Positions 6,866-34,934 of a stretch of DNA of 42,633 bases are shown here, one piece after another. The translations under genes were made by a program, and so were the position numbers. The first letter of the stretch is position 1, and every line of letters begins with the position of its first letter. The notes beneath the pieces are model-generated. The model ran no database searches. It was not told the DNA's origin and saw only the letters and a program-made list of their open reading frames with translations. The stretch is from Candidatus Omnitrophota bacterium (GTDB taxonomy: Bacteria > Omnitrophota > Gorgyraeia > 1-14-0-20-64-10): NCBI GenBank assembly GCA_023248155.1, contig JAHFFE010000006.1, forward strand, positions 46,523 to 89,155, read 5' to 3'.

Positions 6866-8272
6866 ATGATGAATCAAGATGCTCTTCAACAGAAGGGGCT
6901 GTCACTCTTTTTGGTGGCAGTCTTTTCGTTCGCGCTGACGTCCTGCGGCGGCAGTTCCTACCCGAAAGATCAGCTGACCCAGCGGCTGGCCGAGGTTTGC
7001 AAACGGGAATACGGCCTGACCGTTCGCGCGCAGGTCTCCGGCACGACGCTGGGTGTTTTGGTTGAACTTCCCGGTTTAGTCGACGAACTGCGCAAGAGCG
7101 CCTCGGCCGATGAGCGCGCGCTGATGGACCCGCCGCTGTCGGTGGAAGGCCGCTATACCGAAGGGGCATTTGATTTCCGCGTGGAAGTAAAAACGCCGTT
7201 TAAACTGAAGCATCCGGGTCTGGAAGATGATCCGGACGACGGCAAGAAAGAACCTTCCGACGTCATGAAGAAACTGCGGCGCGTTTCGCATATTGTTTTA
7301 CGCGCCTGCCTTTCGACCGACGCCAAAATTGATTTTTACACGATTATCGCGCGCGATCCCGGCTCTGAAAAATACGATCTGATTTTTTCCGGTCATGTGC
7401 TGGATACCAAGATGATGCAGTACTACGCGATCTCGATGGGCGAGTTCCGCCGCCGCAGTGAATACTCGGTTCGCCGCCAGCCCGAAGCGCTGGCCGCTGA
7501 AATCGTCGAAGCATTCCTGATTGATCTGCGCCGCCGCTCGGTGCCGGAATTGCTGAGCGCCTACACAGCGCGCACCAAACGATTTGAAGCAATGCTGCCG
7601 AAGATGATTGATGTGGCCACCATTGTTCAGGGCAACGAGCAGAAATTATTTGATCAGCCGTGGTATTCGCGGCAGATTGATGAAAAGACCGTGCTGGTCG
7701 CCGTGCCGCTAAAGCCGCTGGCCGACCCGGGAACTTTGCTGTTTGTCGTGGAAGTGAAAGAGGGGATGGGCAATCCGCGCGAAATGCCGGGCGCTTTACT
7801 GGACATACTCCGTTTGGGCAACCGCGAACTGCTGCCGGAAGCGTACCAAAAATATGGTCCTCCTGAAACCTGGAAAGACTCCTTCTATTTGGAGCCGCTC
7901 TCGCTGCCGGTTTTTATCGCCAAGCAGGTGGCTCGCCGCGCGCTGGCTTCGGCCGAGCCGATTCCTGATGAGAAAGAGGAGGCCGAACTGAAAAAACTTC
8001 CCAAGGATGCTCAGAAAATGAAACGGCTTCTCAAGAAAAACAAACCGGCTCCCGTTGTGAAAAAACCGCTTCCGCCCGGAGCGGCTACGCTGCAGGATCT
8101 GGCGCAATGGGTCACTGCCGATCTGGCGTATGTCACGAAGATTTATCAGTTTAATCAATACCGTGAAATGAGCCTGGTTGATGTCGAAAAGGGAACCCGC
8201 TGGCAGGTTCCGGCCGCGCAGGTCGAGCTGTTCCGCAAAAAAGATCCTCCGAAAATCAGCCCGGTACCGTGA
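6866..8272 (+). CDS. Putative lipoprotein of unknown function
   Basis: Signal with lipobox (FALTSC), no recognised domain. Confidence 0.6.
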   Translation: MMNQDALQQKGLSLFLVAVFSFALTSCGGSSYPKDQLTQRLAEVCKREYGLTVRAQVSGTTLGVLVELPGLVDELRKSASADERALMDPPLSVEGRYTEGAFDFRVEVKTPFKLKHPGLEDDPDDGKKEPSDVMKKLRRVSHIVLRACLSTDAKIDFYTIIARDPGSEKYDLIFSGHVLDTKMMQYYAISMGEFRRRSEYSVRRQPEALAAEIVEAFLIDLRRRSVPELLSAYTARTKRFEAMLPKMIDVATIVQGNEQKLFDQPWYSRQIDEKTVLVAVPLKPLADPGTLLFVVEVKEGMGNPREMPGALLDILRLGNRELLPEAYQKYGPPETWKDSFYLEPLSLPVFIAKQVARRALASAEPIPDEKEEAELKKLPKDAQKMKRLLKKNKPAPVVKKPLPPGAATLQDLAQWVTADLAYVTKIYQFNQYREMSLVDVEKGTRWQVPAAQVELFRKKDPPKISPVP

Positions 8273-9132
8273 AGTCGGTCGTTCTCGAGTCTTACGCCAA
8301 AGTCAATTTGTTCCTCGATGTGCTCCAGAAATTTCCGGACGGCTATCATGAATTGCTCACCGTTTTTGAGCGCGTCAGTTTGGCCGACCGGGTGACCGTC
8401 GAACGTGTTTCCGGGTCAGGGATCGGTCTCGAATGCGATGCGGCCGGAGTTCCGGCCGACGAAACCAACCTGGCCGTGAAAGCGGCGCTGGCGTACCGGG
8501 CGGCATGCGGTTGGAGCGACGGTCTGCGCATCATGCTGCAAAAAAATATCCCGGCCGGCGGCGGAATGGGCGGGGGATCGTCCAACGCAGCGGCCGTTTT
8601 GCTGGCGCTCGATCAGCTCAGCGGGCAGGCGCTGCCGCGCACTGCGTTGATCGAATGCGCGCGAGAGTTGGGCGCCGACGTCGCCTTCTTTATGGAGCAG
8701 ACCCCGTTCGGAATCGGCCGCCATCGCGGCGACGTAATCGAGCCGCTGGCATTTCCGGATACCCGGCTCTGGCACCTGCTGGTGACGCCCGAGTTCCCGG
8801 TGCCGACCAAGACCGTTTATCAGTCGCTTCGCTTGACACCCAAACACCCCGATGTTAAAATTATTTTAGGTGCCCTGGAGCAGCGGCAAATTCCCAGGGT
8901 ACAGACATTACTCTACAACGCATTAGAGCCTACCGTGGAAACTCTCTTTCCTGCGATTGCGCGGGTTAAAGATCGAATGATGAAAGATGGGGGAGTGTCC
9001 TCTCCGGTTGTTTCCGGAAGCGGATCGACGGTTTTTTCCGTCTGCGCTTCGGAAGCCGAAGCGAGACAAGCCGCGGAGCGTCTTCAAAAGCTGCAGCCGG
9101 ATTGGCGGATTTTTGCCGCCCGGACAGTCTAG
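8269..9132 (+). CDS. ispE: 4-diphosphocytidyl-2-C-methyl-D-erythritol kinase
   Basis: SYAKVNLFLDVL, GHMP kinase motif PAGGGMGGGSSNAAA; GTG start overlapping upstream stop. Confidence 0.92.
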   Translation: MKSVVLESYAKVNLFLDVLQKFPDGYHELLTVFERVSLADRVTVERVSGSGIGLECDAAGVPADETNLAVKAALAYRAACGWSDGLRIMLQKNIPAGGGMGGGSSNAAAVLLALDQLSGQALPRTALIECARELGADVAFFMEQTPFGIGRHRGDVIEPLAFPDTRLWHLLVTPEFPVPTKTVYQSLRLTPKHPDVKIILGALEQRQIPRVQTLLYNALEPTVETLFPAIARVKDRMMKDGGVSSPVVSGSGSTVFSVCASEAEARQAAERLQKLQPDWRIFAARTV

Positions 9133-9161
9133 GAGGCAGGCAGGGTCTTCAATAAATCGTT

Positions 9162-9235
9162 TGCCCTGTCGTCCAACGGTAGGACGCCAGATTTTGGGTC
9201 TGGTTATCTAGGTTCGAATCCTAGCGGGGCAACCA
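9162..9235 (+). tRNA. tRNA-Gln (anticodon TTG), CCA encoded
   Basis: Cloverleaf: acceptor TGCCCTG/CGGGGCA, anticodon arm CCAGA-TTTTGGG-TCTGG, T arm CTAGGTTCGAATCCTAG, encoded ACCA. Confidence 0.95.
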
Positions 9236-9244
9236 CTTTAGTGG

Positions 9245-9285
9245 TGTCATTTAAGATGCTGAGCAAAGACGATCTCAGCATGACA
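9245..9285. repeat. Dispersed palindromic repeat copy 1
   Basis: tgtcatttaag-ATGCTGAG-caaagacgat-CTCAGCAT-gaca, related to copy at 21714-21781. Confidence 0.75.
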
Positions 9286-9411
9286 GCTTGGGCAGGATTC
9301 GAGGGGAGCTGCGACTTGGTTCAGGGAGGTCTGACCGAATAGAGAAGACCGACTTCTTTGGGAGCAGCGGGTGGCCGACCTGGAATTCCGCTGATGCGGA
9401 ATGGAAGGCGC

Positions 9412-21797: not shown

Positions 21798-23162
21798 GTG
21801 GCAGAAGCGCATTTGGAAGAAGTTCAGGTAGCGGTCCGGCAGCGAACGATTCGCGCGCCCGCCCGCGTCGAGGGTCTCGGTCTTCATACCGGCGCGCAGG
21901 TTCGCATTGAATTCAAGCCGGCTCCTCCCGACAGCGGAATTTCCTTCGTGCGGACCGACTTGGCCGGAACACCGCCTGTTCTGGCTTCCGTTCAGAATGT
22001 GCTCGATTCTTCCCGCCGCGCCCGCCGTACCTCGGTCGGACAGGGTCCCGTTGAAGTTCATACGGTTGAGCATTTGATGGCCAGTTGTTTCGGCGCCGGG
22101 ATTGACAACCTGCTCGTGGAAATCAGCGGCGAAGAAGTTCCCGGTCTCGACGGCTCCGCCTATCCGTTTCTGGAAATTTTCCGGCGCGTCGGTTTGCAGG
22201 AACAACCGGTTTCCAAACGGGCCATTCCGATCCGTGAAGTCGTATGGATTGAAGAAGGCTCCTCTGCCATCGCCGTCTTTCCGTCGGATTCATTCAAAAT
22301 TTCCTACACGCTGAGTTATCCGATTCCCGGAATGTCGGCGCAATTTTTTACCAGTGAAATAACGCCGGACTGTTTTGAAAAGCAAGTCGCTCCGGCGCGC
22401 ACTTTTTGTCTGGCGCAGGAAGCCGAGCAGTTGCGCAAAGTAGGGCTGGGCAAGGGCGCCAATTACGAGAACACTGTGGTGGTCGATGCCTCCGGCCGCG
22501 TGATCAATAATACGCTGCGATATGCCGATGAATGCGTGCGCCACAAAGTGCTCGACCTGATCGGCGACCTGTATCTGCTGGGCCGCCCGATCGTGGGCCA
22601 TGTGGTGGCGATCCGGTCCGGTCATGCGATGAACATCAAATTGATCCAGCGGCTGCGGCAGGTGATCGAGCGCGCCCGGGAGAGCGGCATTCAGGCGCAG
22701 CAGGTTCTTCCCGAAGCAAAGGCGATGGATATTGAAACGATCCAGCGAATTTTGCCGCATCGCTATCCATTCCTGTTGCTGGATCGCGTGATCGAATTGG
22801 TTCCGGACAAGCGGGCCGTCGGCATTAAAAATGTGACGGTCAACGAACCGTTTTTTCAGGGCCATTTTCCGAAGCGCCCCGTGATGCCCGGTGTTTTGAT
22901 GGTGGAGGCGCTCGCGCAGTTATCCGGCATCCTTTTGTTGAACAAGCCGGAAAACCTGGGAAAATATACCTATTTTGTAGCGCTCGACAATGTCCGCTTC
23001 CGCCGGACCGTGTTGCCGGGCGACACGCTTTATTTGGAAACGGAAGTGCTGCGGATTCGCGCCAAGACCGGGCAGATGCGCGCCCGCGCATTGGTTGAGG
23101 GCAAGGTGGCTGTCGAGGCCGATCTGATGTTCGCGCTGTTGGATGGAGACGACCGGCTGTAA
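21798..23162 (+). CDS. lpxC/fabZ: Bifunctional LpxC-FabZ fusion (UDP-3-O-acyl-GlcNAc deacetylase / hydroxyacyl-ACP dehydratase)
   Basis: LpxC motifs HTVEHLMAS, DGSAYPFLE, HKVLDLIGDLYLLG; FabZ motif ILPHRYPFLLLDRV...FFQGHFPKRPVMPGVLMVEALAQ. Confidence 0.93.
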   Translation: MAEAHLEEVQVAVRQRTIRAPARVEGLGLHTGAQVRIEFKPAPPDSGISFVRTDLAGTPPVLASVQNVLDSSRRARRTSVGQGPVEVHTVEHLMASCFGAGIDNLLVEISGEEVPGLDGSAYPFLEIFRRVGLQEQPVSKRAIPIREVVWIEEGSSAIAVFPSDSFKISYTLSYPIPGMSAQFFTSEITPDCFEKQVAPARTFCLAQEAEQLRKVGLGKGANYENTVVVDASGRVINNTLRYADECVRHKVLDLIGDLYLLGRPIVGHVVAIRSGHAMNIKLIQRLRQVIERARESGIQAQQVLPEAKAMDIETIQRILPHRYPFLLLDRVIELVPDKRAVGIKNVTVNEPFFQGHFPKRPVMPGVLMVEALAQLSGILLLNKPENLGKYTYFVALDNVRFRRTVLPGDTLYLETEVLRIRAKTGQMRARALVEGKVAVEADLMFALLDGDDRL

Positions 23163-23237: not shown

Positions 23238-24041
23238 ATGCGTTTATTGGGAATCATCGCAGGCAACCGCTCATTTCCGCTGCATGTGGCCCGCGCCGCG
23301 AAAGCGCAGGGCTATTCGGTGGTTGCCGTCGGGTTGAAAGAAGAGACCGATCCGCTTCTTGAAAAGGAAGTGGACCGGATGCATTGGGTCTCTTTTTCTG
23401 AGATCGGATCGATTCCTGGATTATTGAAAGAGGCCGGCGTCCGCGAGGTTGTGCTGGCCGGACAGATCCGTCCCGAACGGCTGTTGGGTAAAGAACTCCG
23501 TTTGGATGGGATTGCTGCCGGATTATTGCGCGCTGTTCCGGACCGTTCCGGTACGACGGCGATGCAGATGGCCGTCCGTTATCTGGAGTCCAAAAAATTC
23601 CGAGTACTGCATTCCGGTATTTTTTTGAAAGAATGGATTCCGGCCCGCGGTTGCCTGACGAAACTTGATTTTACGCCGGAACAAAAAGCTGACGCGTTAT
23701 TCGGATTCACCGTGGCACGCCAAATGGCGCGCTGGAAAATCGGACAGACCGTGGTGGTGCGGCATAAGGCGGTTGCGGCGGTTGAAGCGATGGAGGGGAC
23801 CGATGAAACGATCCGCCGCGCCGGTCAGCGCGTCGGTCCGGGTTGTCTGGCCGTTAAGGCCTGTGAGCCGGGACATGATATGCGTTTTGATATTCCGGTG
23901 ATCGGCCCGGATACGATTCGCGCGCTTTCTGAATCGGCCGCGGTGGGCATTGCGGTCCAGGCGGGAAAAGTTCTTTTGTTCGAACGCGAGCAGGTGATTC
24001 AGGAAGCCGACCGGCTCGGTTTGCGGGTCGTGGCGTTATGA
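23238..24041 (+). CDS. lpxI: UDP-2,3-diacylglucosamine pyrophosphatase LpxI
   Basis: LGIIAGNRSFPLHVARAAKAQGY, VVLAGQIRPE, KACEPGHDMRFDIPVIGPDTI. Confidence 0.9.
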   Translation: MRLLGIIAGNRSFPLHVARAAKAQGYSVVAVGLKEETDPLLEKEVDRMHWVSFSEIGSIPGLLKEAGVREVVLAGQIRPERLLGKELRLDGIAAGLLRAVPDRSGTTAMQMAVRYLESKKFRVLHSGIFLKEWIPARGCLTKLDFTPEQKADALFGFTVARQMARWKIGQTVVVRHKAVAAVEAMEGTDETIRRAGQRVGPGCLAVKACEPGHDMRFDIPVIGPDTIRALSESAAVGIAVQAGKVLLFEREQVIQEADRLGLRVVAL

Positions 24042-25723
24042 ATCATTCTGTGAATATTGCGCTGGCCCAATTAAATCTGACGGTCGGCGCTCTGAATGCC
24101 AATGGCGATAAAATTGTTGATTGGCTCGGTCGCGCGAAGCGGCAGGGTGCATCGCTGGTTTTGTTTCCGGAATTGACGATCACCGGATATCCTCCCGAAG
24201 ATCTGTTGTTCAATCCATCATTCATCCGAGATAACCGGACGGTTTTGCGGCATGTGGCTGCCGCTGCTCGAGGGATCGCCGCGTTGGTCGGTTTTGTCGA
24301 TCGCGACAAAGATGGGGCTTTATATAACGCGGCGGCTGTGTTGGCGCAGGGGCGTGTGTTGACTGTCTACCGCAAGATGAAACTTCCCAATTACGGCGTG
24401 TTTGATGAGCGGCGCTATTTTTCGACCGGTTCCGATTCGTTGTTGCTGCGTTTTGGCCGGACCGGGCCTATCGCCGGTCTTTCAATTTGTGAAGATATCT
24501 GGGTAGAGGATGGCCCATTTCTTGCCGAGGCGAAATCGGGCGCATCACTGCTTTTGAATTTGTCGGCCTCACCGTTTCATGCCGGCAAGTGGAAAGTCCG
24601 CGAACAGCTGCTGGTGCGGCGCGCTCGGGCTACAAAAACCAGCATTGCCTACGTTAATCTGGTCGGGGGACAGGATGAGCTGGTGTTTGACGGCGGAAGC
24701 ATGGTTGCCGATTCTTCCGGTATTCGTTACCGGGCGCCGCAATTTGAAGAATCGTTGTCGGTCCATTCGTTTCCGGCCAAAGCCGCCGGCGATCACGCGG
24801 CAGCTGTTTTTGTTCCGGTTCCTGTCTCTGCGCGGAAAATTTCAAAGGCCCGTTCGACCCCGCGTCTTTCTGCCGACCGGGAAATTTTTCAGGCGCTCGT
24901 GCTCGGATTGAAAGATTATGCGGTCAAGAACGGGTTTGAAAAAGTTGTTTTTGGAATGAGCGGCGGAATTGATTCGGCGCTGACGGCGGCGCTGGCCGTG
25001 GCCGCGCTGGGGAAAGAAAATGTCACGGCGGTTTCGATGCCGTCGCGTTATTCGTCCGACGAAACGCGTTCCGACGCCCGGGCTGTTTCAAAGGCGTTGG
25101 GCATTCGTTTTCTGGAAATTCCGATCGAGCCGGCTTTCGCGGCTACGCTGCAGATGCTTTATCGTGCCCTGGGAAAGCCGCTGGAAGGTTTGCCGGCAGA
25201 AAATCTGCAGGCGCGCATTCGCGGCCTTCTGTTAATGGCGCTTTCGAATAAAAACGGCTGGCTGGTATTGACGACCGGCAATAAGTCGGAACTCTCGACC
25301 GGCTATTGCACGCTGTATGGCGACATGGTCGGCGGATTTGCGCCGATCAAGGATCTGCCGAAAAAGATGGTTTATCAATTGTGCGGCACGGCCAACCGGT
25401 TTTTCAAAAAGTCGGTTATTCCGCGTTCAGTCTTCGTGCGGGCGCCAACGGCTGAGTTGCGTTTCAATCAGACCGATCAGGATACGCTGCCGCCGTATGA
25501 TTTGCTGGATCAGGTGGTGCGATTGTATGTGGAAGGGCGCGTTCCGTTGTCGGAATTGAAAAAGAAAATGCCATCCTCCAAAATTAATCCGGAGCGTCTC
25601 GTCCGAATGATTAACTTAAACGAATACAAGCGGCGGCAGGCGGCCGTTGGTGTTAAAATAACGCCTTTGGCTTTTGGCCGGGACCGGCGGATGCCGATTA
25701 CGAACGGGTATCGGGAGAAATGA
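24038..25723 (+). CDS. nadE: Glutamine-dependent NAD+ synthetase
   Basis: N-terminal nitrilase-like domain (FPELTITGYPPEDLL), C-terminal FGMSGGIDSALTAALA, TTGNKSELSTGYCTLYGDMVGGF. Confidence 0.94.
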   Translation: MNHSVNIALAQLNLTVGALNANGDKIVDWLGRAKRQGASLVLFPELTITGYPPEDLLFNPSFIRDNRTVLRHVAAAARGIAALVGFVDRDKDGALYNAAAVLAQGRVLTVYRKMKLPNYGVFDERRYFSTGSDSLLLRFGRTGPIAGLSICEDIWVEDGPFLAEAKSGASLLLNLSASPFHAGKWKVREQLLVRRARATKTSIAYVNLVGGQDELVFDGGSMVADSSGIRYRAPQFEESLSVHSFPAKAAGDHAAAVFVPVPVSARKISKARSTPRLSADREIFQALVLGLKDYAVKNGFEKVVFGMSGGIDSALTAALAVAALGKENVTAVSMPSRYSSDETRSDARAVSKALGIRFLEIPIEPAFAATLQMLYRALGKPLEGLPAENLQARIRGLLLMALSNKNGWLVLTTGNKSELSTGYCTLYGDMVGGFAPIKDLPKKMVYQLCGTANRFFKKSVIPRSVFVRAPTAELRFNQTDQDTLPPYDLLDQVVRLYVEGRVPLSELKKKMPSSKINPERLVRMINLNEYKRRQAAVGVKITPLAFGRDRRMPITNGYREK

Positions 25724-26400
25724 TCGAGTCAATTTTACTTGTCGGCGAACTGTCCGCCGACTTAAAACGGTTGAAAGCTCATCTGCTGAAGCAGGGATTC
25801 CGTGTTTTTTGCGCCGAGCTGGACGGGCTGGATGATTTGCAGTCGGGCAAACAGCGGTTTATGGCCTGCGCTTGGGATGCCGCCGGTGTTGTCCGTTTAG
25901 CCGATGGCTTGAACCGCCTGCGTTCAGAATCGGCTGTTAAAGAACTTCCGCTGATGGTGCTTATTAAGGAAGGCCAGATTAAGGATTTTCTGTCGCAGAA
26001 GGGAATTGATGATTTTGTGTTTGTGCCGGCTTCTGCCGAAGCGATCGAAGCGCGGCTCCGGTTTCTGCTGGGCCGCCTTAATCATCCGATGCCGGGCGAT
26101 GGAGCACGGATCGGCGCTCTTGAGATCAATATGGACCGTTACGAAATCCGGCTGGAAGGGGAGCCGCTGGAGTTAACTTACAAAGAATTTGAACTATTCC
26201 GGTTCCTCGCGACGCATCCGGGCCGGGTATTCAGCCGTGATCAGCTGTTAAACCAGGTCTGGGGCTATAACTTTATCGGCGGCACGCGCACCGTCGATGT
26301 CCATGTTCGCCGCCTGCGGTCCAAGCTGGGACCCAAATATGCCGCGCTCGTCGATACGATCCGCAACGTCGGCTACCGCTTCAATGAAAACCTCCGCTAG
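25720..26400 (+). CDS. OmpR/PhoB-family winged-helix regulator with degenerate receiver; GlnR-like orphan regulator
   Basis: Trans_reg_C helix: [53 protein letters not shown]; receiver begins [10 protein letters not shown] (no DD pocket). Confidence 0.85.
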   Translation: [226 protein letters not shown]

Positions 26401-26414
26401 CTGATTTTAAAAGA

Positions 26415-26720
26415 CAACCTGTGTTTCGAGTCGGTCCGGGTATGGGGACCGTGGACACTCTAGGAATCGACTACCGATTCCGTCGCTCTGTCTCCGGCCT
26501 TGCCGAATAATAATTCGTTTCGGCCTCCGCCAAGGTCCACTTGCCCCATATCCCGATCCTCCTCTTGAATACGCAGGCGCTTCGGGTGACGCGGGCGGGA
26601 GAGGCCTCTGCCGCCACGCGCGCAGCGAAGCGAGCACGGACGGCGGAGAGTGTCCCCGAGCGGCAGGACCCGAAGCGACAGAGATGTATGGTGGCCCGAG
26701 CTGACTCGAAACACAAGTTG
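26415..26720. repeat. Inverted-repeat-bounded structured intergenic element
   Basis: Ends CAACCTGTGTTTCGAGTC (26415-26432) and GACTCGAAACACAAGTTG (26703-26720), 17/18 complementary; several internal stems. Confidence 0.7.
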
Positions 26721-26742
26721 CCTGACGGAAGGGCTTCCATTC

Positions 26743-26804
26743 CGTAATATCGATTTAACATAACAGTTATTTTCCTGTAACGCTTCTTTTCTATCCTGTT
26801 ACGC
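26743..26804 (+). promoter_or_regulatory. Candidate OmpR/GlnR-type operator upstream of porin-amt-PII operon
   Basis: GTAAT(26744)-n6-TTAAC-n6-GTTAT-n6-GTAAC(26777), plus GTTAC at 26798. Confidence 0.6.
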
Positions 26805-26867: not shown

Positions 26868-28115
26868 ATGTTGTTTGTCACTCCCCGATTGCTTCAAAGA
26901 ATGGCGGTTCTTGTTCTATCTGTTTTTGCATTTGCGCAGCAGGCTTCAGCTGCTGAGGTGAACGGAGTTTGGACGGAAGCCTCTACCAAGGACCTGGGTG
27001 AGTGGTCCGGCGTTAAAGAACTTGAAAAGATTAAAGTGCGTGGCTGGTTGGAGTCGGTATTCGTGCATAATTTTAACGAGCCTTCTCGCACCACGGTCAA
27101 TGCGAACCAGGGTTCCTCCATCGTGAAGGTCAATAACGATACGATTGAAGGACGCGTTTTCGACACCAACAGCGACGCGGTCCGCATCAGTTTGGCCGAA
27201 GTCGAATTCGAGAAAGTTCCAACGCTGGGCGAGTGGGGTGGGTTGGGTTTCAAGGCCGATGTGGAAGTCGGCGATGATCCGCAGATCATTTACGACACCA
27301 TCATCGGCGGTCTCGGCAAAAGTTTGAATTCCAACGATAAATGGCTTCAGCACGCGACGGTCGGCTGGGTGGCGCCCATCGGCAAAGGGCTTCGCCTCGA
27401 TGCCGGCAAGATGGTGACGCATATCGGCGGTGAGACGATTGAGGGAATCAAGAACAACAACCTCTCGCATGGTCTGTTGTTCACCTATGCCATTCCGTTC
27501 CAGCAGACCGGTGTCCGCCTGGATTACGTCTGGTCCGACAAGTTTGTGACCGATTTCTATGTACTGCGCGGCTGGAATGTCACAACGCGTGATAATAACA
27601 GCGGCGTGACGGTGGGGCCGTCGTTTGGATGGCTGCCGACCTCGTGGTTCAATTTTTACCTGAACTATCTGGCAGGTCCGGAACAGCGCAACAATGAATC
27701 AAATTACCGGCATTTAGTCGATTGGCAAGCGTTGTTCAATACACCGATTCCGAAACTGAATCTGATATTGTTCGGCGATATTGCGTTTGAAGAAGAAGCG
27801 GTGGCCGGGCGGAATGCGGCCTGGAACGGCATTGGTGGTGTGGCACGCTACAAGCTGACCGATGATCTGGAACCGGCGCTGCGGCTTGAGTATTTCAACG
27901 ACCGGGACGGTTTCGCCACCGGCGTTGATCAGAAGATGGTGGAAATCACGCTTTCGTTAAATTATAAGATCGCGTTGAAGAAAGGTTTCAGCCTGCTGAT
28001 TCGCCCCGAGTATCGATACGATAAATCCTCGGAAGGGTTTTTTACGAAAGAGACCACATTCCGCTCTGAGAAGGATCAGCACACGGTCGGCATCGGCACC
28101 TATCTTTATTTCTAA
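26868..28115 (+). CDS. Putative outer-membrane beta-barrel porin (BBP2/OmpL-like)
   Basis: Signal peptide, barrel-like alternating pattern, ends in F (GIGTYLYF); precedes amt. Confidence 0.75.
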   Translation: MLFVTPRLLQRMAVLVLSVFAFAQQASAAEVNGVWTEASTKDLGEWSGVKELEKIKVRGWLESVFVHNFNEPSRTTVNANQGSSIVKVNNDTIEGRVFDTNSDAVRISLAEVEFEKVPTLGEWGGLGFKADVEVGDDPQIIYDTIIGGLGKSLNSNDKWLQHATVGWVAPIGKGLRLDAGKMVTHIGGETIEGIKNNNLSHGLLFTYAIPFQQTGVRLDYVWSDKFVTDFYVLRGWNVTTRDNNSGVTVGPSFGWLPTSWFNFYLNYLAGPEQRNNESNYRHLVDWQALFNTPIPKLNLILFGDIAFEEEAVAGRNAAWNGIGGVARYKLTDDLEPALRLEYFNDRDGFATGVDQKMVEITLSLNYKIALKKGFSLLIRPEYRYDKSSEGFFTKETTFRSEKDQHTVGIGTYLYF

Positions 28116-28152
28116 TTGAATAGAAGAAAAGATTAACAACGGAGGGTTTGTG

Positions 28153-29697
28153 ATGCGTAGGAAATTGGTAAGCGGTTTATTGTTGGGGATGCTGGCGCTG
28201 GGATTGGCCTTGCCGGTGTTGTCATGGGCGGCGGGAGATCCTACCGGAGCGAATACCGGAACAATTGCCGATGTTTCGGCTGCTACGGCTGGGGCCCCAA
28301 CGCTGGAGGAAGTGGCCGCCACGGCGGGCCATAACAAAGTGGCAATCAACATGATGTGGGTGTTGATTACCGGATTTCTGGTCATGTTTATGCAGGCCGG
28401 GTTTGCGATGGTGGAGACCGGTTTGACCCGCGCCAAAAATGTCGCGCATACAATGGCGATGAACTTCATGGTTTATCCGCTGGGGATGCTGGGGTTCTAT
28501 GTCTGCGGGTTCGCCCTCATGTTTGGCGGTATGGGCGCGCTCGGGACGATGGGCGGTTACGCGGGTCTGAATCAGGAATTCACGCTGCATCTGTTCGGCA
28601 AAGATTTCGGCTTGTTTGGCATGACCGGTTTTTGCCTGTCCGGCCATTACGATGTGGCGGTTTTCGCGATGTTTTTGTTCCAGATGGTTTTTATGGACAC
28701 AACGGCGACAATCCCGACCGGTGCCTGCGCGGAACGGTGGAAATATTTAGCGTTCTTTATTTACGCCCTGTTTGTCGGATCGGTGATCTACCCGATTTTC
28801 GGAAACTGGGTCTGGGGCGGCGGCTGGCTGGCAACGCTGGGCAAGAATTTTGCCTTGGGGCATGGCCATGTGGACTTCGCCGGTTCATCAGTAGTTCATA
28901 TGACCGGCGGCGTGATCGCGCTGGTCTTTGGTTGGTTGCTGGGTCCGCGAATCGGGAAGTATAACAAGGATGGGAGCATTAACGCGATTCCGGGGCACAA
29001 CCTTCCGATGGCGATTATCGGCACGTTCATTCTGGCGTTCGGCTGGTTTGGATTTAATCCCGGTTCCTCATTGGCCGGAACGGATCTGCGTATTGCCGTG
29101 GTGGCAGTCAATACGATGTTGGCCTCTGCAACCGGAGCGGTTGCTTCTACGCTTTGGATGTGGCGCGTTCGCGGCAAGAAGCCGGATCCGAGCATGATGT
29201 GCAACGGGATGCTGGCTGGTCTGGTTGCCATTACCGCGCCCTGTGCTTTTGTCAATTCGATCAGCGCCTGCTTGATCGGTTTGATTTCGGGTGTTTTGGT
29301 CGTCGAGGCGGCGTTCTTCATTGAGCGTAACCTGAGAATTGATGACCCGGTGGGTGCTATCGCGGTGCATGGCGTCAACGGCGCTTGGGGCTGTTTGGCG
29401 CTGGGTTTGTTTGCTGACGGCACTTATGGCGACGGCTGGAACGGCGTGGCGGGTACCGTGAAAGGTTTGTTCTACGGTGATTCGTCCCAGTTTATCGCCC
29501 AGTGCGTTGGAGTAACAGCCAACATCATCTATGTGGGCGCGATTTCATTCGTCATCTATAAACTGATCGATAAGTTAGTGGGTCATCGGGCGGATCCGGC
29601 GGCGGAGGTTCACGGTCTGGATGTTCCCGAAATGGGAGTTCCGGGCTATGTGGGAGTCAAGATGGATAAATTCTCCGAAACGCCGTTGTCCCGATAA
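28153..29697 (+). CDS. amt: Ammonium transporter (Amt family) with N-terminal signal sequence
   Basis: AGFAMVETGLTRAKN, DFAGSSVVHMTGG, GWFGFNPGSSL, AVHGVNGAWG. Confidence 0.95.
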   Translation: MRRKLVSGLLLGMLALGLALPVLSWAAGDPTGANTGTIADVSAATAGAPTLEEVAATAGHNKVAINMMWVLITGFLVMFMQAGFAMVETGLTRAKNVAHTMAMNFMVYPLGMLGFYVCGFALMFGGMGALGTMGGYAGLNQEFTLHLFGKDFGLFGMTGFCLSGHYDVAVFAMFLFQMVFMDTTATIPTGACAERWKYLAFFIYALFVGSVIYPIFGNWVWGGGWLATLGKNFALGHGHVDFAGSSVVHMTGGVIALVFGWLLGPRIGKYNKDGSINAIPGHNLPMAIIGTFILAFGWFGFNPGSSLAGTDLRIAVVAVNTMLASATGAVASTLWMWRVRGKKPDPSMMCNGMLAGLVAITAPCAFVNSISACLIGLISGVLVVEAAFFIERNLRIDDPVGAIAVHGVNGAWGCLALGLFADGTYGDGWNGVAGTVKGLFYGDSSQFIAQCVGVTANIIYVGAISFVIYKLIDKLVGHRADPAAEVHGLDVPEMGVPGYVGVKMDKFSETPLSR

Positions 29698-29711: not shown

Positions 29712-30050
29712 ATGAAAAAAATTGAAGCCATCATTCGTCCCGAAAAGCTGGCAGAGGTCCGCGCGGCGCTGGAGAAAGTGGGATTTCCCGGCCTGCATGT
29801 CTGTGAGGTGGAAGGGCATGGCAAGCAGAAAGGGGTAGTTCAGCAGTGGCGCGGAGACCAGTACCGGGTGGAGATGCTGCCTAAGGTGAAACTGGAAATC
29901 GTGGTCAGCGATAAGGATGTAAAGAAAATCGTCCAGGCGATTGTCGAAACGGCAAAGACCGGATCGGTCGGAGACGGCAAGATATTCGTTTCTCCTGTGG
30001 ATGAGGTTATTCGGATTCGCACCAACGAGTCCGGCGAATCGGCGTTGTAA
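29712..30050 (+). CDS. glnK: Nitrogen regulatory protein P-II
   Basis: MKKIEAIIRPEKLAEVRAAL; T-loop RGDQYRVEMLPKVKLEIVV; TGSVGDGKIFV. Confidence 0.95.
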   Translation: MKKIEAIIRPEKLAEVRAALEKVGFPGLHVCEVEGHGKQKGVVQQWRGDQYRVEMLPKVKLEIVVSDKDVKKIVQAIVETAKTGSVGDGKIFVSPVDEVIRIRTNESGESAL

Positions 30051-30098: not shown

Positions 30099-30137
30099 CG
30101 TAATATAGATTTAACATTCCCGTAACTCGTCCTTAAT
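30099..30137 (+). promoter_or_regulatory. Candidate OmpR/GlnR-type operator upstream of glnA
   Basis: GTAAT(30100)-n6-TTAAC-n6-GTAAC-n6-TTAAT; 18/19 match to CGTAATATMGATTTAACAT at 26743. Confidence 0.6.
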
Positions 30138-30216: not shown

Positions 30217-31707
30217 ATGGTAAAGAAGCAGTCGTCAAAGAAAGTGTCTGGCGGTTCGTCCAGCGACGCCTTTCAGGTGAAGCCGAATACGGCCGCGATT
30301 GAGCGGGCGTACAAGCTGATCAAAGATTATAAAATTGAGATCGTCGATCTAAAATTCTGCGACCTTCCGGGAACCTGGCAGCATGTGTCGGTTGCGTTGA
30401 GCATGCTGTCTCCGTCCAGCTGGGTTGACGGTTTCGGGTTTGACGGTTCTTCAATCCGCGGCTTCAAGAAGATCAATGAATCGGACATGCTGCTGATTCC
30501 GGACGCGACGACCGCGATCGTCGATCCGGTCCACCAGATCCCGACCTTGTCGCTGGTCTGCGATATCATCGATCCGATCACGCGCAAGCCGTACAGCCGC
30601 AGCCCGCGCTACATCGCGCGCAAGGCCGAAGCGTTCCTGAAGACAACCGGTTTTGCCGATACCGTTTATTTCGGGCCGGAAGCCGAATTTTTCCTGTTCA
30701 ACGACGTCCGTTACGCTCAGAACCAGCACAGCGGTTATTACTACATCGATTCCGTCGAGGGCGAATGGAACACCGGCACCGATGAGAAGCCGAACCTGGC
30801 CTACAAGACGCGCAACAAGGAAGGATATTACCCGGTTCCTCCGAGCGATACGCTGCAGGATATCCGCAGCGAGATGGTGCTCTCGATGATCAAGTCCGGC
30901 ATCACGGCCGAGATCCATCATCACGAAGTGGCGACGGCCGGCCAGTGCGAGATCGACATGAAGTTCGATTCGCTCACCACAATGGCCGACAAGCTGCTGC
31001 TTTACAAATACATCGTCAAGAATGTGGCCCGTAAGCATAACATGGTGGCGACCTTCATGCCGAAGCCGTTGTTTGCCGATAACGGATCAGGCATGCACTG
31101 CCACCAGTCGCTCTGGAAGAACGGGGAGCCGCTCTTCTACGATGCGAAGGGTTACGCGTTGATTTCGCAGATGTGCAAGTGGTACATCGGCGGTTTGATC
31201 AAGCACGGCAAGTCGCTCATGGCAATCTGTGCTCCGACGACCAACTCCTACAAGCGGTTGGTTCCGGGCTACGAAGCGCCGGTCAACCTGGTCTACAGCC
31301 AGCGCAACCGTTCGGCCGCCTGCCGTATTCCGACTTACTCGGCGAGCCCGAAAGCCCGTCGCGTGGAGTTCCGCCCGCCGGACCCGTCCGCGAACCCGTA
31401 CCTGGCGTTCTCGGCGTTGATGATGGCCGGTATTGACGGCATCATCAACAAGATCGACCCGGGTCAGCCGGTCGATGAGGATTTGTTCGAATTATCGAAA
31501 GAGCGGTTGGCGAAAATTCCGACCGTTCCGGGTTCCTTGCCGGAAGCGTTGGACGCACTGGAGAAGGATCACGAGTACCTGCTCCGCGGTGGCGTCTTCA
31601 CGCAGGATGTGATCGATACCTGGATCGACTACAAGAAGGAAAAAGAGTCCGATCCGGTTCGCCTGCGGCCGCATCCGTGGGAATTCTATCTCTACTTTGA
31701 CGTTTAA
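30217..31707 (+). CDS. glnA: Glutamine synthetase type I, GSI-beta-like length
   Basis: GFDGSSIRGF, EAEFFLF, NGSGMHCHQSLWK, NSYKRLVPGYEAPV, C-terminus PHPWEFYLYFDV. Confidence 0.95.
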   Translation: MVKKQSSKKVSGGSSSDAFQVKPNTAAIERAYKLIKDYKIEIVDLKFCDLPGTWQHVSVALSMLSPSSWVDGFGFDGSSIRGFKKINESDMLLIPDATTAIVDPVHQIPTLSLVCDIIDPITRKPYSRSPRYIARKAEAFLKTTGFADTVYFGPEAEFFLFNDVRYAQNQHSGYYYIDSVEGEWNTGTDEKPNLAYKTRNKEGYYPVPPSDTLQDIRSEMVLSMIKSGITAEIHHHEVATAGQCEIDMKFDSLTTMADKLLLYKYIVKNVARKHNMVATFMPKPLFADNGSGMHCHQSLWKNGEPLFYDAKGYALISQMCKWYIGGLIKHGKSLMAICAPTTNSYKRLVPGYEAPVNLVYSQRNRSAACRIPTYSASPKARRVEFRPPDPSANPYLAFSALMMAGIDGIINKIDPGQPVDEDLFELSKERLAKIPTVPGSLPEALDALEKDHEYLLRGGVFTQDVIDTWIDYKKEKESDPVRLRPHPWEFYLYFDV

Positions 31708-31789: not shown

Positions 31790-33133
31790 ATGGCACATAC
31801 GCAGCGAAAAGATAAAGAGTATGTTCTGCGCAAAGCGCGCGACATGGGCGTCAAATTCATCCGCCTCTGGTTTACCGATATTTTGGGCTCGCTCAAAAAT
31901 GTCGCGATCACCATTGAGGAATTGGAAGAAGCGCTGGAAGAGGGCGTCGGGTTTGACGGTTCCGCCGTAGAAGGTTTCGCGCGCGCCGAAGAATCGGATA
32001 TGATCGCGCTGCCGGACCCCAACACTTTCGCGATCCTGCCGTGGCGCCCCAAAGAAAATGCCGTGGCCCGCATGATCTGCGACATCGTCAAGCCGGGCGG
32101 AAAGCCGTTCGAGGGCGATCCGCGCTACATCCTTAAGAAAAACCTGAAAGAGGCGGCCAGCCTCGGCTATACCTATTATGTGGGTCCGGAACTGGAACAT
32201 TTTTATTTCAAATCATCCGACAATCCGGAACCGATTGATACGGGCGGTTATTTTGATATGACGCCGCTCGACCTGGCCACTGACCTGCGCCGTGAAACCA
32301 TCCTGGCGATGGAAGAGCTGGGCGTCGGCGTGGAATTCAGCCATCATGAAGTGGCGCCTTCCCAGCATGAAATTGATTTCCGTTACGCCGATGCGCTGAC
32401 GATGGCCGACAGTTTAATGACCTACCGGCTCGTCGTGAAAGAGATCGCGCTCAAGCACGGCTATTACGCCACCTTTATGCCGAAGCCGTTGGCAGGACAG
32501 AACGGTTCCGGTATGCATGTGAACATCTCTCTTTTTGAGGGAGATAAGAATGTTTTCTTCGATCCGAAAGGCCATCATGGTCTCTCCGAGATCGGCAAGA
32601 GGTTTCTCGCCGGAATTCTGACGCATGCGCGCGAATTTACGGTTGTGACCAATCAGTGGGTCAACTCCTACAAGCGGCTGATTCCCGGATATGAAGCGCC
32701 GGTCTATGTCACCTGGGCTTATACGAACCGTTCTGATCTGGTCCGCATTCCGACGAATAAACCGGGGAAAGAATCGGCGTTCCGCATTGAGCTGCGCAGT
32801 CCTGATCCGGCCTGCAACCCGTACCTGGCATTCGCTGTGATTTTGGCCGCCGGTCTGGAGGGGGTAAAATCCAAAAAACCTTTAGTGCTTCCTGCTCCGG
32901 CCGATACGAATGTCAGCCGGCTTTCAAAGGAAGATCGCCAGAAGCGGGGCATTCAATCACTGCCGCGTGATTTGGGCGAAGCGATTGAAATTGCCGAAGG
33001 ATCCGAGCTTTTACGCAAAGCGCTCGGCGAGCATGTCTTTACCTCTTTCATTGAGAACAAGAAAATTGAGTGGGAGCAGTACCGCGCCGCCGTGACCGAT
33101 TTCGAGCGCAAAACCTACCTGCCGCTCTTGTAA
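31790..33133 (+). CDS. Glutamine synthetase type I, GSI-alpha-like (447 aa)
   Basis: GVGFDGSAVEGFAR, GPELEHFYF, NGSGMHVNISLF, NSYKRLIPGYEAPVYVTWAYTNRS. Confidence 0.93.
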   Translation: MAHTQRKDKEYVLRKARDMGVKFIRLWFTDILGSLKNVAITIEELEEALEEGVGFDGSAVEGFARAEESDMIALPDPNTFAILPWRPKENAVARMICDIVKPGGKPFEGDPRYILKKNLKEAASLGYTYYVGPELEHFYFKSSDNPEPIDTGGYFDMTPLDLATDLRRETILAMEELGVGVEFSHHEVAPSQHEIDFRYADALTMADSLMTYRLVVKEIALKHGYYATFMPKPLAGQNGSGMHVNISLFEGDKNVFFDPKGHHGLSEIGKRFLAGILTHAREFTVVTNQWVNSYKRLIPGYEAPVYVTWAYTNRSDLVRIPTNKPGKESAFRIELRSPDPACNPYLAFAVILAAGLEGVKSKKPLVLPAPADTNVSRLSKEDRQKRGIQSLPRDLGEAIEIAEGSELLRKALGEHVFTSFIENKKIEWEQYRAAVTDFERKTYLPLL

Positions 33134-33164
33134 TTCCGCACTGGTTTTGTGGTATCTTTCATCT

Positions 33165-34934
33165 ATGCGCCAAAAAGAGCCGTTCTTTCTTGGACGAATT
33201 TTAACGATTTTTTTAATCGTTAATTTTCTGCTGCCCAGCTCCGCTTTTGCGCTGCGCGCGATGACCGGGGAGGGGGCCGGAACCGAAGAGTTGGGAAACC
33301 GCCTTAATCCTTCGAGAACGGCGGCCGGCCAGGAGGAATCAAACGGAAAGGTTCTTTCGTACCGGCATCTGATTACGCACCGTCATTCGCAGGTACCCCC
33401 GGTCCAGCTTTATCTGGGAAACAACAGTTCGGCGCCGCTCTTTTTGCCTTCCAGCCGTCCGTTATTTATTCCGTCCTCATTGATGGCCGATACCACCGTT
33501 CGCGTTGTTCACGAGCGGGACATGAATTCGATCATTCATTCGGGCGATCAGTGGTTCGACCTTCATATCCTTCCGTCCCGCGACAGGGATATCCGTCTGC
33601 GCATTCTTAAGCATTCGGATGATGCGTATTTAAAACAAGCGGTTGTTGAAACCCATTGGCTTACGAATCGAGACGAGTTGTATTCGGACAAACGGCTCCA
33701 GATTAGAAAAACGCGTAATGGTGTTGTTGTGACTCCAAAGAAAAACAAGACCCTGTATACCGAATGGTTCCCCGATGAAATCCGGCTGACGGTTAACCAA
33801 TGGGCGCGGTTCGGTTCCGTGATCGAAAAGATCAGGGATGACAGTGGTGAAATCAGTCAGTCGCTGGGCCGTGTTCCTGCCACTGAACTGGTGGAATATT
33901 GGCATGGCGACGGAAAAGAGCGGCAGATTCGTATTGTCCGGACCGGATTAATGCCTTTGCCGGACGGAGATGGTCTTGGCCCGCAGTTGTTTGTCTTGAT
34001 CCCTCCAGGCCGGTGGGATCCAAAACAGTTGGAAAAACTGCTTGGATTTTCTTTGCAACCGGGAAAAATAACCGGTCTGTTACCGATCCGCGCTTCGGAT
34101 GGTCCTCGGCTGCTGCGCGTCGGCATTCAACATGAACCCAGCGGTCTATTGCGTATTATGACGCCTCCTGAGCCGATTATTGGTTTGCCGAACGATTTAA
34201 GAATTTTGGTTCGTCTGTTGGCTTATTTGACAGAGCCGGAGCGTGCTCCACGATACGATGGCAATACTCCAACCGCCAAGTTGAAAGAAATCATTCATAG
34301 GCATGAACAAAAGGGAGCCTCGTTTGATCCGGATCCGTATCCGATTCGGTATGAAGCGACCTGGGCGCTGGCCCGCCGGCCGGAAGCGACTGATTTTTTA
34401 TTGGAACGGTTGCGGGTTGGAAGCAAAGAGTGGGAAAAAACACCAACAATCCGCCGCATGATTATTGCCGAATGGGTCTACGCGCTTGAAAGAGACAGTA
34501 AGCTGTTTTCTCTGGATCAAAAGGCCAGGATATGGACTGCGCTGGCCGGCTTATTGACCGGTTTGCGGCTCGATAATTCATTAGCTCCTCTGTATGAACA
34601 GGATTCCAGTGAGCAGGTGCAGTGGGCCGCGCTGCAGGGGTTGGTCCGTTTTGTTCCTCCGGCAGAAATTCCTGATACTTTAAATGCTTATCAGCTTCAG
34701 ACTGTCCATGCGCTCGACTTTGCGATGTATCACAGCTCTTTTGAATTGGTGCGCGACGAAGCCGATCAATTTTTAATAGCGATTAAGAGCGGTAAGCCGA
34801 TCCGCATCGGATTCTGGCAGGGCGCTTCTCTGGAAGATCTGCCGGGCCGCCAGAGTAGTTTTTCTTCCGGCGGCATGGAGGAATGGGTTCAAACGGCCGG
34901 CGAAAACCGCGAATATTTCGGAAGCCAGTCTTAA
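33165..34934 (+). CDS. Exported protein of unknown function
   Basis: Signal-peptide-like N-terminus (ILTIFLIVNFLLPSSAFALRAM); no recognised domain; start 33147 or 33165 uncertain. Confidence 0.55.
   Translation: MRQKEPFFLGRILTIFLIVNFLLPSSAFALRAMTGEGAGTEELGNRLNPSRTAAGQEESNGKVLSYRHLITHRHSQVPPVQLYLGNNSSAPLFLPSSRPLFIPSSLMADTTVRVVHERDMNSIIHSGDQWFDLHILPSRDRDIRLRILKHSDDAYLKQAVVETHWLTNRDELYSDKRLQIRKTRNGVVVTPKKNKTLYTEWFPDEIRLTVNQWARFGSVIEKIRDDSGEISQSLGRVPATELVEYWHGDGKERQIRIVRTGLMPLPDGDGLGPQLFVLIPPGRWDPKQLEKLLGFSLQPGKITGLLPIRASDGPRLLRVGIQHEPSGLLRIMTPPEPIIGLPNDLRILVRLLAYLTEPERAPRYDGNTPTAKLKEIIHRHEQKGASFDPDPYPIRYEATWALARRPEATDFLLERLRVGSKEWEKTPTIRRMIIAEWVYALERDSKLFSLDQKARIWTALAGLLTGLRLDNSLAPLYEQDSSEQVQWAALQGLVRFVPPAEIPDTLNAYQLQTVHALDFAMYHSSFELVRDEADQFLIAIKSGKPIRIGFWQGASLEDLPGRQSSFSSGGMEEWVQTAGENREYFGSQS

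Follow-up and report, generated by a model that had tools for sequence, protein, structure and literature searches.

The openly accessible literature that we searched describes GlnR as the nitrogen regulator of Actinomycetes, with its nitrogen sensing unsettled, along with an unrelated GlnR of Firmicutes, and gave no GlnR for Omnitrophota or Chloroflexota. Actinomycete GlnR is known structurally from Mycobacterium tuberculosis (8hih), from the DNA-binding domain of the Saccharopolyspora erythraea protein (8hig, 8hml) and from receiver structures (4o1h, 4o1i). It is an orphan regulator of the OmpR family whose receiver has lost the pocket residues and kept the Asp, and it targets amt, PII and glnA. 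Its Asp50 is held by Arg52 and Thr9 in a network stabilising the homodimer, and its activation complex has four sites (review PMC10704036). The published GlnR box is gTnAC-n6-GaAAC repeated, with t/gTAAC in mycobacteria. Atypical receivers working independently of phosphorylation, some of them intrinsically dimeric, are furthermore found in NnaR, ChxR, HP1043 and RitR (PMC12632262). The PhoB/MtrA/RegX3 type has the same domain architecture and uses tandem 11-bp half-sites just upstream of the -10 element, but is distinguished by a full phosphorylation pocket and a cognate kinase.

Here we analyse an OmpR-family gene from an uncultivated bacterium of Candidatus Omnitrophota that lies among nitrogen genes, and compare it with these systems. 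The protein is, very probably, a GlnR-type nitrogen regulator independent of phosphorylation, predicted to bind two operators of four half-sites each and thereby to control porin-amt-PII and glnA-glnA. The initial annotation had proposed a GlnR-type regulator outside the classical phylum; sequence and structure searches, phylogeny, pocket residues, synteny and operators all bear out this proposal.

Results

Gene neighbourhood of the regulator

The window, that is, the whole stretch of 42,633 nucleotides that was analysed, contains the features collected in Table 1. The ATG of the regulator gene overlaps the nadE stop codon (ATGA, 25720-25723), so that the two genes are probably both translated and transcribed together. 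As had been stated before, no histidine kinase gene is adjacent: the neighbours were identified and none is a kinase, nor is one recognisable among the open reading frames listed in the window.

Table 1. Coordinates of the regulator, its domains, its neighbours and the predicted control elements in the window.
Feature	Position	Strand	Basis
nadE, glutamine-dependent NAD synthase	24038..25723	+	ORF and family matches
GlnR-type orphan regulator, 226 aa	25720..26400	+	ORF, Pfam, PDB search, tree, Foldseek
Pseudo-receiver domain, residues 1-121	25720..26082	+	REC fold kept, Asp53 in phosphoacceptor column
Winged-helix DNA-binding domain, residues 129-222	26104..26385	+	Pfam, Foldseek, identities
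Recognition helix, residues 188-203	26281..26328	+	AlphaFold model, identities
Repetitive element, ~330 bp	26405..26735		46 genome matches, inverted-repeat ends
Predicted operator array 1, porin-amt-PII promoter: GTAAT-n6-TTAAC-n6-GTTAT-n6-GTAAC	26744..26781	+	Pattern search, alignment of arrays
Candidate -10, TATCCT, 10 bp past fourth half-site	26792..26797	+	Inferred, geometry kept in relatives
BBP2-family (OmpL-like) porin	26868..28115	+	First gene of presumed target operon
amt, ammonium transporter	28150..29697	+	ORF and family matches
PII signal protein (GlnB/GlnK type)	29712..30050	+	ORF and family matches
Predicted operator array 2, glnA promoter: GTAAT-n6-TTAAC-n6-GTAAC-n6-TTAAT	30100..30137	+	Pattern search, alignment of arrays
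glnA, type I glutamine synthetase	30217..31707	+	ORF and family matches
Second GlnA-type glutamine synthetase	31790..33133	+	ORF and family matches

The regulator was correctly placed upstream of porin-amt-PII by the initial annotation; the distance from its stop to the porin start is 467 bp instead of the 468 bp given. Between the regulator stop and array 1 sits the repetitive element, which is MITE-like, with imperfect inverted-repeat ends of 29 nt; the 1.9-Mb genome holds 46 matches to it, many of them partial. Several relatives have the operator only 8-25 bp past the regulator stop, and the long gap in the window would thus be due to this element.

The order nadE-glnR-porin-amt-PII-glnA-glnA is kept in the family of the window (f1) and, with an extra small open reading frame, in family f10; family f8 has lpxI-glnR-amt-PII-glnA or lpxI-glnR-glnA. 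The genes for LpxC-FabZ, LpxD, LpxI, BamA and OmpH upstream of the regulator are consistent with a Gram-negative envelope. The string bamA-ompH-lpxD-lpxC/fabZ-lpxI-nadE-regulator is kept in relatives, and in the window its LpxC-FabA/FabZ fusion protein is encoded at 21798-23162. Past the second glutamine synthetase lies a large open reading frame (33147-34934, 595 aa) that looks secreted and has no Pfam match.

The small open reading frame of family f10, located near glnR or between it and the porin gene (L043 ~7432-7692, minus strand; L044 ~9004-9330, minus strand; L147), encodes 111-122 residues with a Trans_reg_C domain and no receiver, and in L043 and L044 it has an operator array of its own upstream. 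Its product might modulate the GlnR-type protein or compete with it. L044 also contains an extra, divergent PII-like gene (8615-8914, minus strand; 44% identical) between this small winged-helix frame and the porin gene.

Two predicted operator arrays at the nitrogen genes

Two 38-bp arrays, GTAATATCGATTTAACATAACAGTTATTTTCCTGTAAC at 26744 and GTAATATAGATTTAACATTCCCGTAACTCGTCCTTAAT at 30100, each consist of four [G/T]TnA[C/T] half-sites separated by 6-bp spacers, hence with a spacing of 11 bp. The four-half-site pattern occurs in the window at exactly these two positions and in none of 200 simulated windows, and the same arrays stand at the same two promoters in relatives. In their sequence, the arrays match the published layout of the GlnR box, including the 11-bp pitch and the four half-sites in a row, with the difference that TTAAC (GATTTAAC) takes the second position, where the Actinomycete box has GAAAC. 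The target operon also differs from that of Actinomycete GlnR, in that it begins with a BBP2 porin.

The regulator most likely activates porin-amt-PII and glnA-glnA under nitrogen limitation. We infer this direction from a single feature, the PhoB-like position of the operator just upstream of the -10 element, in place of a -35 element. Such replacement of the -35 element by the array is the PhoB-type activating geometry. Among 40 aligned arrays, many of those at porin or amt promoters are followed, about 9 bp further on, by a TAnnnT-like -10. The same protein might, with identical binding, act mainly as a repressor that is released on nitrogen limitation. Steric repression would fit arrays that lie over the -35 position and leave 9-10 bp to the -10, and repression of some targets by Actinomycete GlnR is reported (PMC4140684); we nonetheless consider this reading unlikely, as the array stands in for the -35 element and the four-site layout is the one that PMC10704036 gives for GlnR in its activating complex.

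Distribution of the arrays among genomes

A search of the 1.9-Mb genome with a pattern of three half-sites gave two perfect matches, those at this locus, and with just these two the circuit is apparently local. Allowing two mismatches gave five matches, compared to two for the reversed pattern, and as far as examined these are about background. Across 296 genomes, sites were found in 28 of the 54 that carry the regulator gene and in 2 of the 242 that lack it (Fisher p = 4.9e-22, a value that overstates the independent evidence because the genomes are related); the reversed pattern, used as control over the same 296 genomes, had sites in one. About half of the gene-carrying genomes are without a perfect match to the strict pattern, several of these having looser arrays, and the operator was not made out in f19 and in the second f2 genome. 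The fourth half-site, which is outside the search pattern, is present in 34 of the 40 aligned arrays, whereas neither of the two arrays of gene-free genomes has it.

Sites also occur on two contigs without a regulator gene: the one in G044 (L181:1501) precedes an amt gene in a cluster of tandem amt-PII copies, the one in G037 (L178:1501) a gene with a nitrite/sulfite-reductase domain (Pfam 6.6e-19). The latter adds, as predicted from sites, a nitrite-reductase gene in a relative to the targets resembling those of Actinomycete GlnR. The former cluster (L181, G044:C1, 1081-2973) has the arrangement amt-PII-amt(-PII), with the array at 1501 between the copies.

We regard it as very unlikely that another OmpR-family regulator binds the arrays, the window protein being a mere bystander among these genes. 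The genome does have two other full OmpR/PhoB proteins (L002, L003), and tandem half-sites at 11 bp are a general trait of the OmpR family. However, the array tracks the regulator gene in the proportions just given, and canonical paralogs are common in genomes free of arrays. The regulator gene is moreover syntenic with the arrays, and a recognition helix of GlnR type goes together with half-sites that match the published GlnR box.

The DNA-binding half is that of GlnR

The C-terminal half of the protein is a Trans_reg_C domain (Pfam 1.4e-26), in agreement with its earlier description as an OmpR/PhoB winged helix, and the closeness to GlnR that had been noted for this half proved real. In a phmmer search of the PDB, GlnR came first (8hih, 5e-45; 8hig, 1.6e-44), and the next family, RegX3, followed at 1.5e-24. 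The AlphaFold model, a check that had been suggested for the receiver, has a mean pLDDT of 84.6 and keeps the REC fold in the receiver; with it, Foldseek ranks GlnR 8hih first, RitR structures being among the weaker matches. The DNA-binding domain superimposes on that of S. erythraea GlnR at 0.8-1.1 A with 60-64% identity; since domain orientation differs, full-length TM-scores are low and the superposition of this domain alone was used. Identity in the domain is 54-64% to Actinomycete GlnR compared to 29-51% to canonical regulators, and it increases to 81-94% in the recognition helix, which together with its flanks (19 residues) differs from Actinomycete GlnR in one residue. The Pfam model GlnR_1st scored 22.5 bits, under its cut-off of 27, and was dropped as evidence, having also given weak matches in E. 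coli and other unrelated control genomes.

Phylogeny and relatives in other phyla

The main tree comprised 71 proteins, including 33 canonical OmpR/PhoB regulators, with NnaR, ChxR, HP1043 and RitR standing outside this set. The canonical regulators form one clade with 100/100 support on a long branch. Outside of it, Omnitrophota are represented by the window protein and 16 more, Chloroflexota by two proteins and Actinomycetes by GlnR. The regulator thus falls outside the phosphorylatable PhoB/PhoP clade, placement within which had been named as a possible refutation. Window protein and Actinomycete GlnR group at 97/94, and the split between canonical and GlnR-type proteins is repeated in trees of the receiver only (99) and of the DNA-binding domain only (85). 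As to the root within the GlnR-type proteins and the order among phyla, transfer and common descent would both fit the tree. Profile matches in 296 genomes of the class fell into two groups with a clear gap between them, GlnR-type proteins at 238 bits or more (54 genomes) and canonical ones at 185 bits or less.

GlnR-type proteins occur in at least those phyla that are among the matches listed in the scan of genome contigs. In Chloroflexota, GlnR-like regulators adjoin glnII-glnA-gltB (L133, 6821-14980), glnA (L109, 2648-4072) and amt (L218, L220). The intergenic arrays of these four loci include GATTTAACATATATGTAAC and GTAACATACCTGTTAC as well as GTAAC-n6-TTAAC-n6-GTAAT-n6-GAAAC (L220), the last half-site of which, GAAAC, is the Actinomycete b-site.

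The likeness to GlnR could have arisen by convergence, an unrelated orphan protein of the OmpR family having gained a similar recognition helix and operator. The receivers are equally far from Actinomycete GlnR and from canonical regulators, and rapid decay of the receiver can attract long branches. To convergence we nevertheless assign a slim chance, considering the identity of the DNA-binding domain to GlnR, the recurrence of the split in the tree built from that domain only, and the fact that protein, context and operator are common to the Chloroflexota relatives.

A receiver without the phosphorylation pocket

Pfam Response_reg has no match in the regulator. G9-E10 stands in place of the acidic pair, D53 in that of the Asp, an Ile in that of the Thr/Ser and V102 in that of the Lys, which confirms the two losses, of acidic pair and Lys, that had been read from the sequence initially. 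By alignment, acidic pair, Asp, Thr/Ser and Lys are all kept in each of the 33 canonical regulators, and neither Thr/Ser nor Lys in any of 38 GlnR-type proteins. The acidic pocket, an intact form of which would have spoken against GlnR type, is therefore not intact. The earlier view that no phosphoacceptor is left in a DLxLP context was half correct: these surroundings are gone, but the Asp is not absent, since D53 fills the column as in Actinomycete GlnR. In some Omnitrophota orthologs the column holds Glu, Cys or Asn, unlike Actinomycete GlnR in this respect, which argues that phosphorylation of the Asp is not needed.

The receiver also differs from that of Actinomycete GlnR in the missing T9-D50-R52 network, as A-A-G follows D53 and the Thr column holds Gly in the alignment. 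Its mean identity to Actinomycete GlnR receivers is 19%, that to canonical receivers 21-22%. A structure search with the receiver only put generic receivers on top, GlnR receivers coming in 28th and 50th place; it was unspecific, and we set it aside as evidence of class. As the receiver is no nearer to GlnR than to canonical regulators, the assignment to GlnR is based on DNA-binding domain, tree, context and operator. Given the missing network and the GlnR_1st score below its cut-off, we class the protein as a GlnR-type variant, one that would, as we hold, still work like GlnR. With NnaR, ChxR, HP1043 and RitR it shares a pseudo-receiver within the OmpR family, but no link of these proteins to the operator or the synteny of the window was seen.

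D98 and R112 are the invariant receiver residues in the 38-row alignment A3; the D98 column is Glu in two f8 orthologs. Our own alignment pairs them with D101 and R115 of PhoB, residues of its alpha4-beta5-alpha5 dimer face, and this match suggests that the protein may dimerise constitutively through that face.

That the protein is a conventional phosphorylated response regulator of PhoB/MtrA type, its kinase encoded elsewhere, is most improbable and was rejected on tree and pocket residues: Asp53 in the phosphoacceptor column, a receiver model resembling the PhoB receiver and PhoB as best full-length NCBIfam match (116 bits, far under the cut-off of 296) are outweighed by the loss of acidic pair, Thr/Ser and Lys, the replacement of the Asp by Glu, Asn or Cys in some orthologs and the exclusion from the canonical clade at 100/100.

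Other nitrogen control in the genome

The genome, 98.5% complete, was searched for NtrC and GlnD. It has no NtrC output domain, the NtrC model matching receiver positions only (up to 128 of 463), and no GlnD, for which two short pieces remained below cut-off. Nitrogen control by NtrBC/GlnD was rejected because the genes for the NtrC AAA+ output and GlnD are missing. RNA-based control at the locus was also looked for; Rfam gave two tRNAs only in the window, and no nitrogen riboswitch. With NtrC output domain, GlnD and riboswitch, which were those looked for, all missing, the GlnR-type protein is the evident candidate for nitrogen regulator. An intergenic stretch downstream of the f29 regulator (L045, 7500-7756, minus strand) looks, by eye, like a riboswitch of c-di-GMP type.

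Discussion

The mechanism proposed for the GlnR-type regulator has the winged-helix domains binding the arrays head-to-tail, so that four DNA-binding domains would occupy each array. The nitrogen signal would reach the protein without phosphorylation of the Asp, perhaps by way of PII, glutamine synthetase or a metabolite. An extension of this mechanism, which we offer tentatively and consider rather doubtful as it stands, is that GlnR-type control represents an old circuit of Omnitrophota, Chloroflexota and Actinomycetota, not an Actinomycete invention, in which the pseudo-receiver senses nitrogen not by phosphorylation but by means of a ligand or by directly contacting the PII protein or glutamine synthetase encoded beside it.

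Judged from sequences, GlnR-type nitrogen control has a far wider distribution than the literature searched describes. Omnitrophota and Chloroflexota, in which DNA-binding module, operator and target genes are all of the GlnR kind, provide an independent and compact version of it, in a genome without NtrC output domain or GlnD; in the reference genome, the compactness amounts to one regulator and two operators. Features of the receiver, even the Asp, can apparently be lost while the circuit persists, which would narrow the problem of how nitrogen is sensed. Lastly, our study suggests a predicted regulon for the phylum Omnitrophota, of which hardly any members are in culture.
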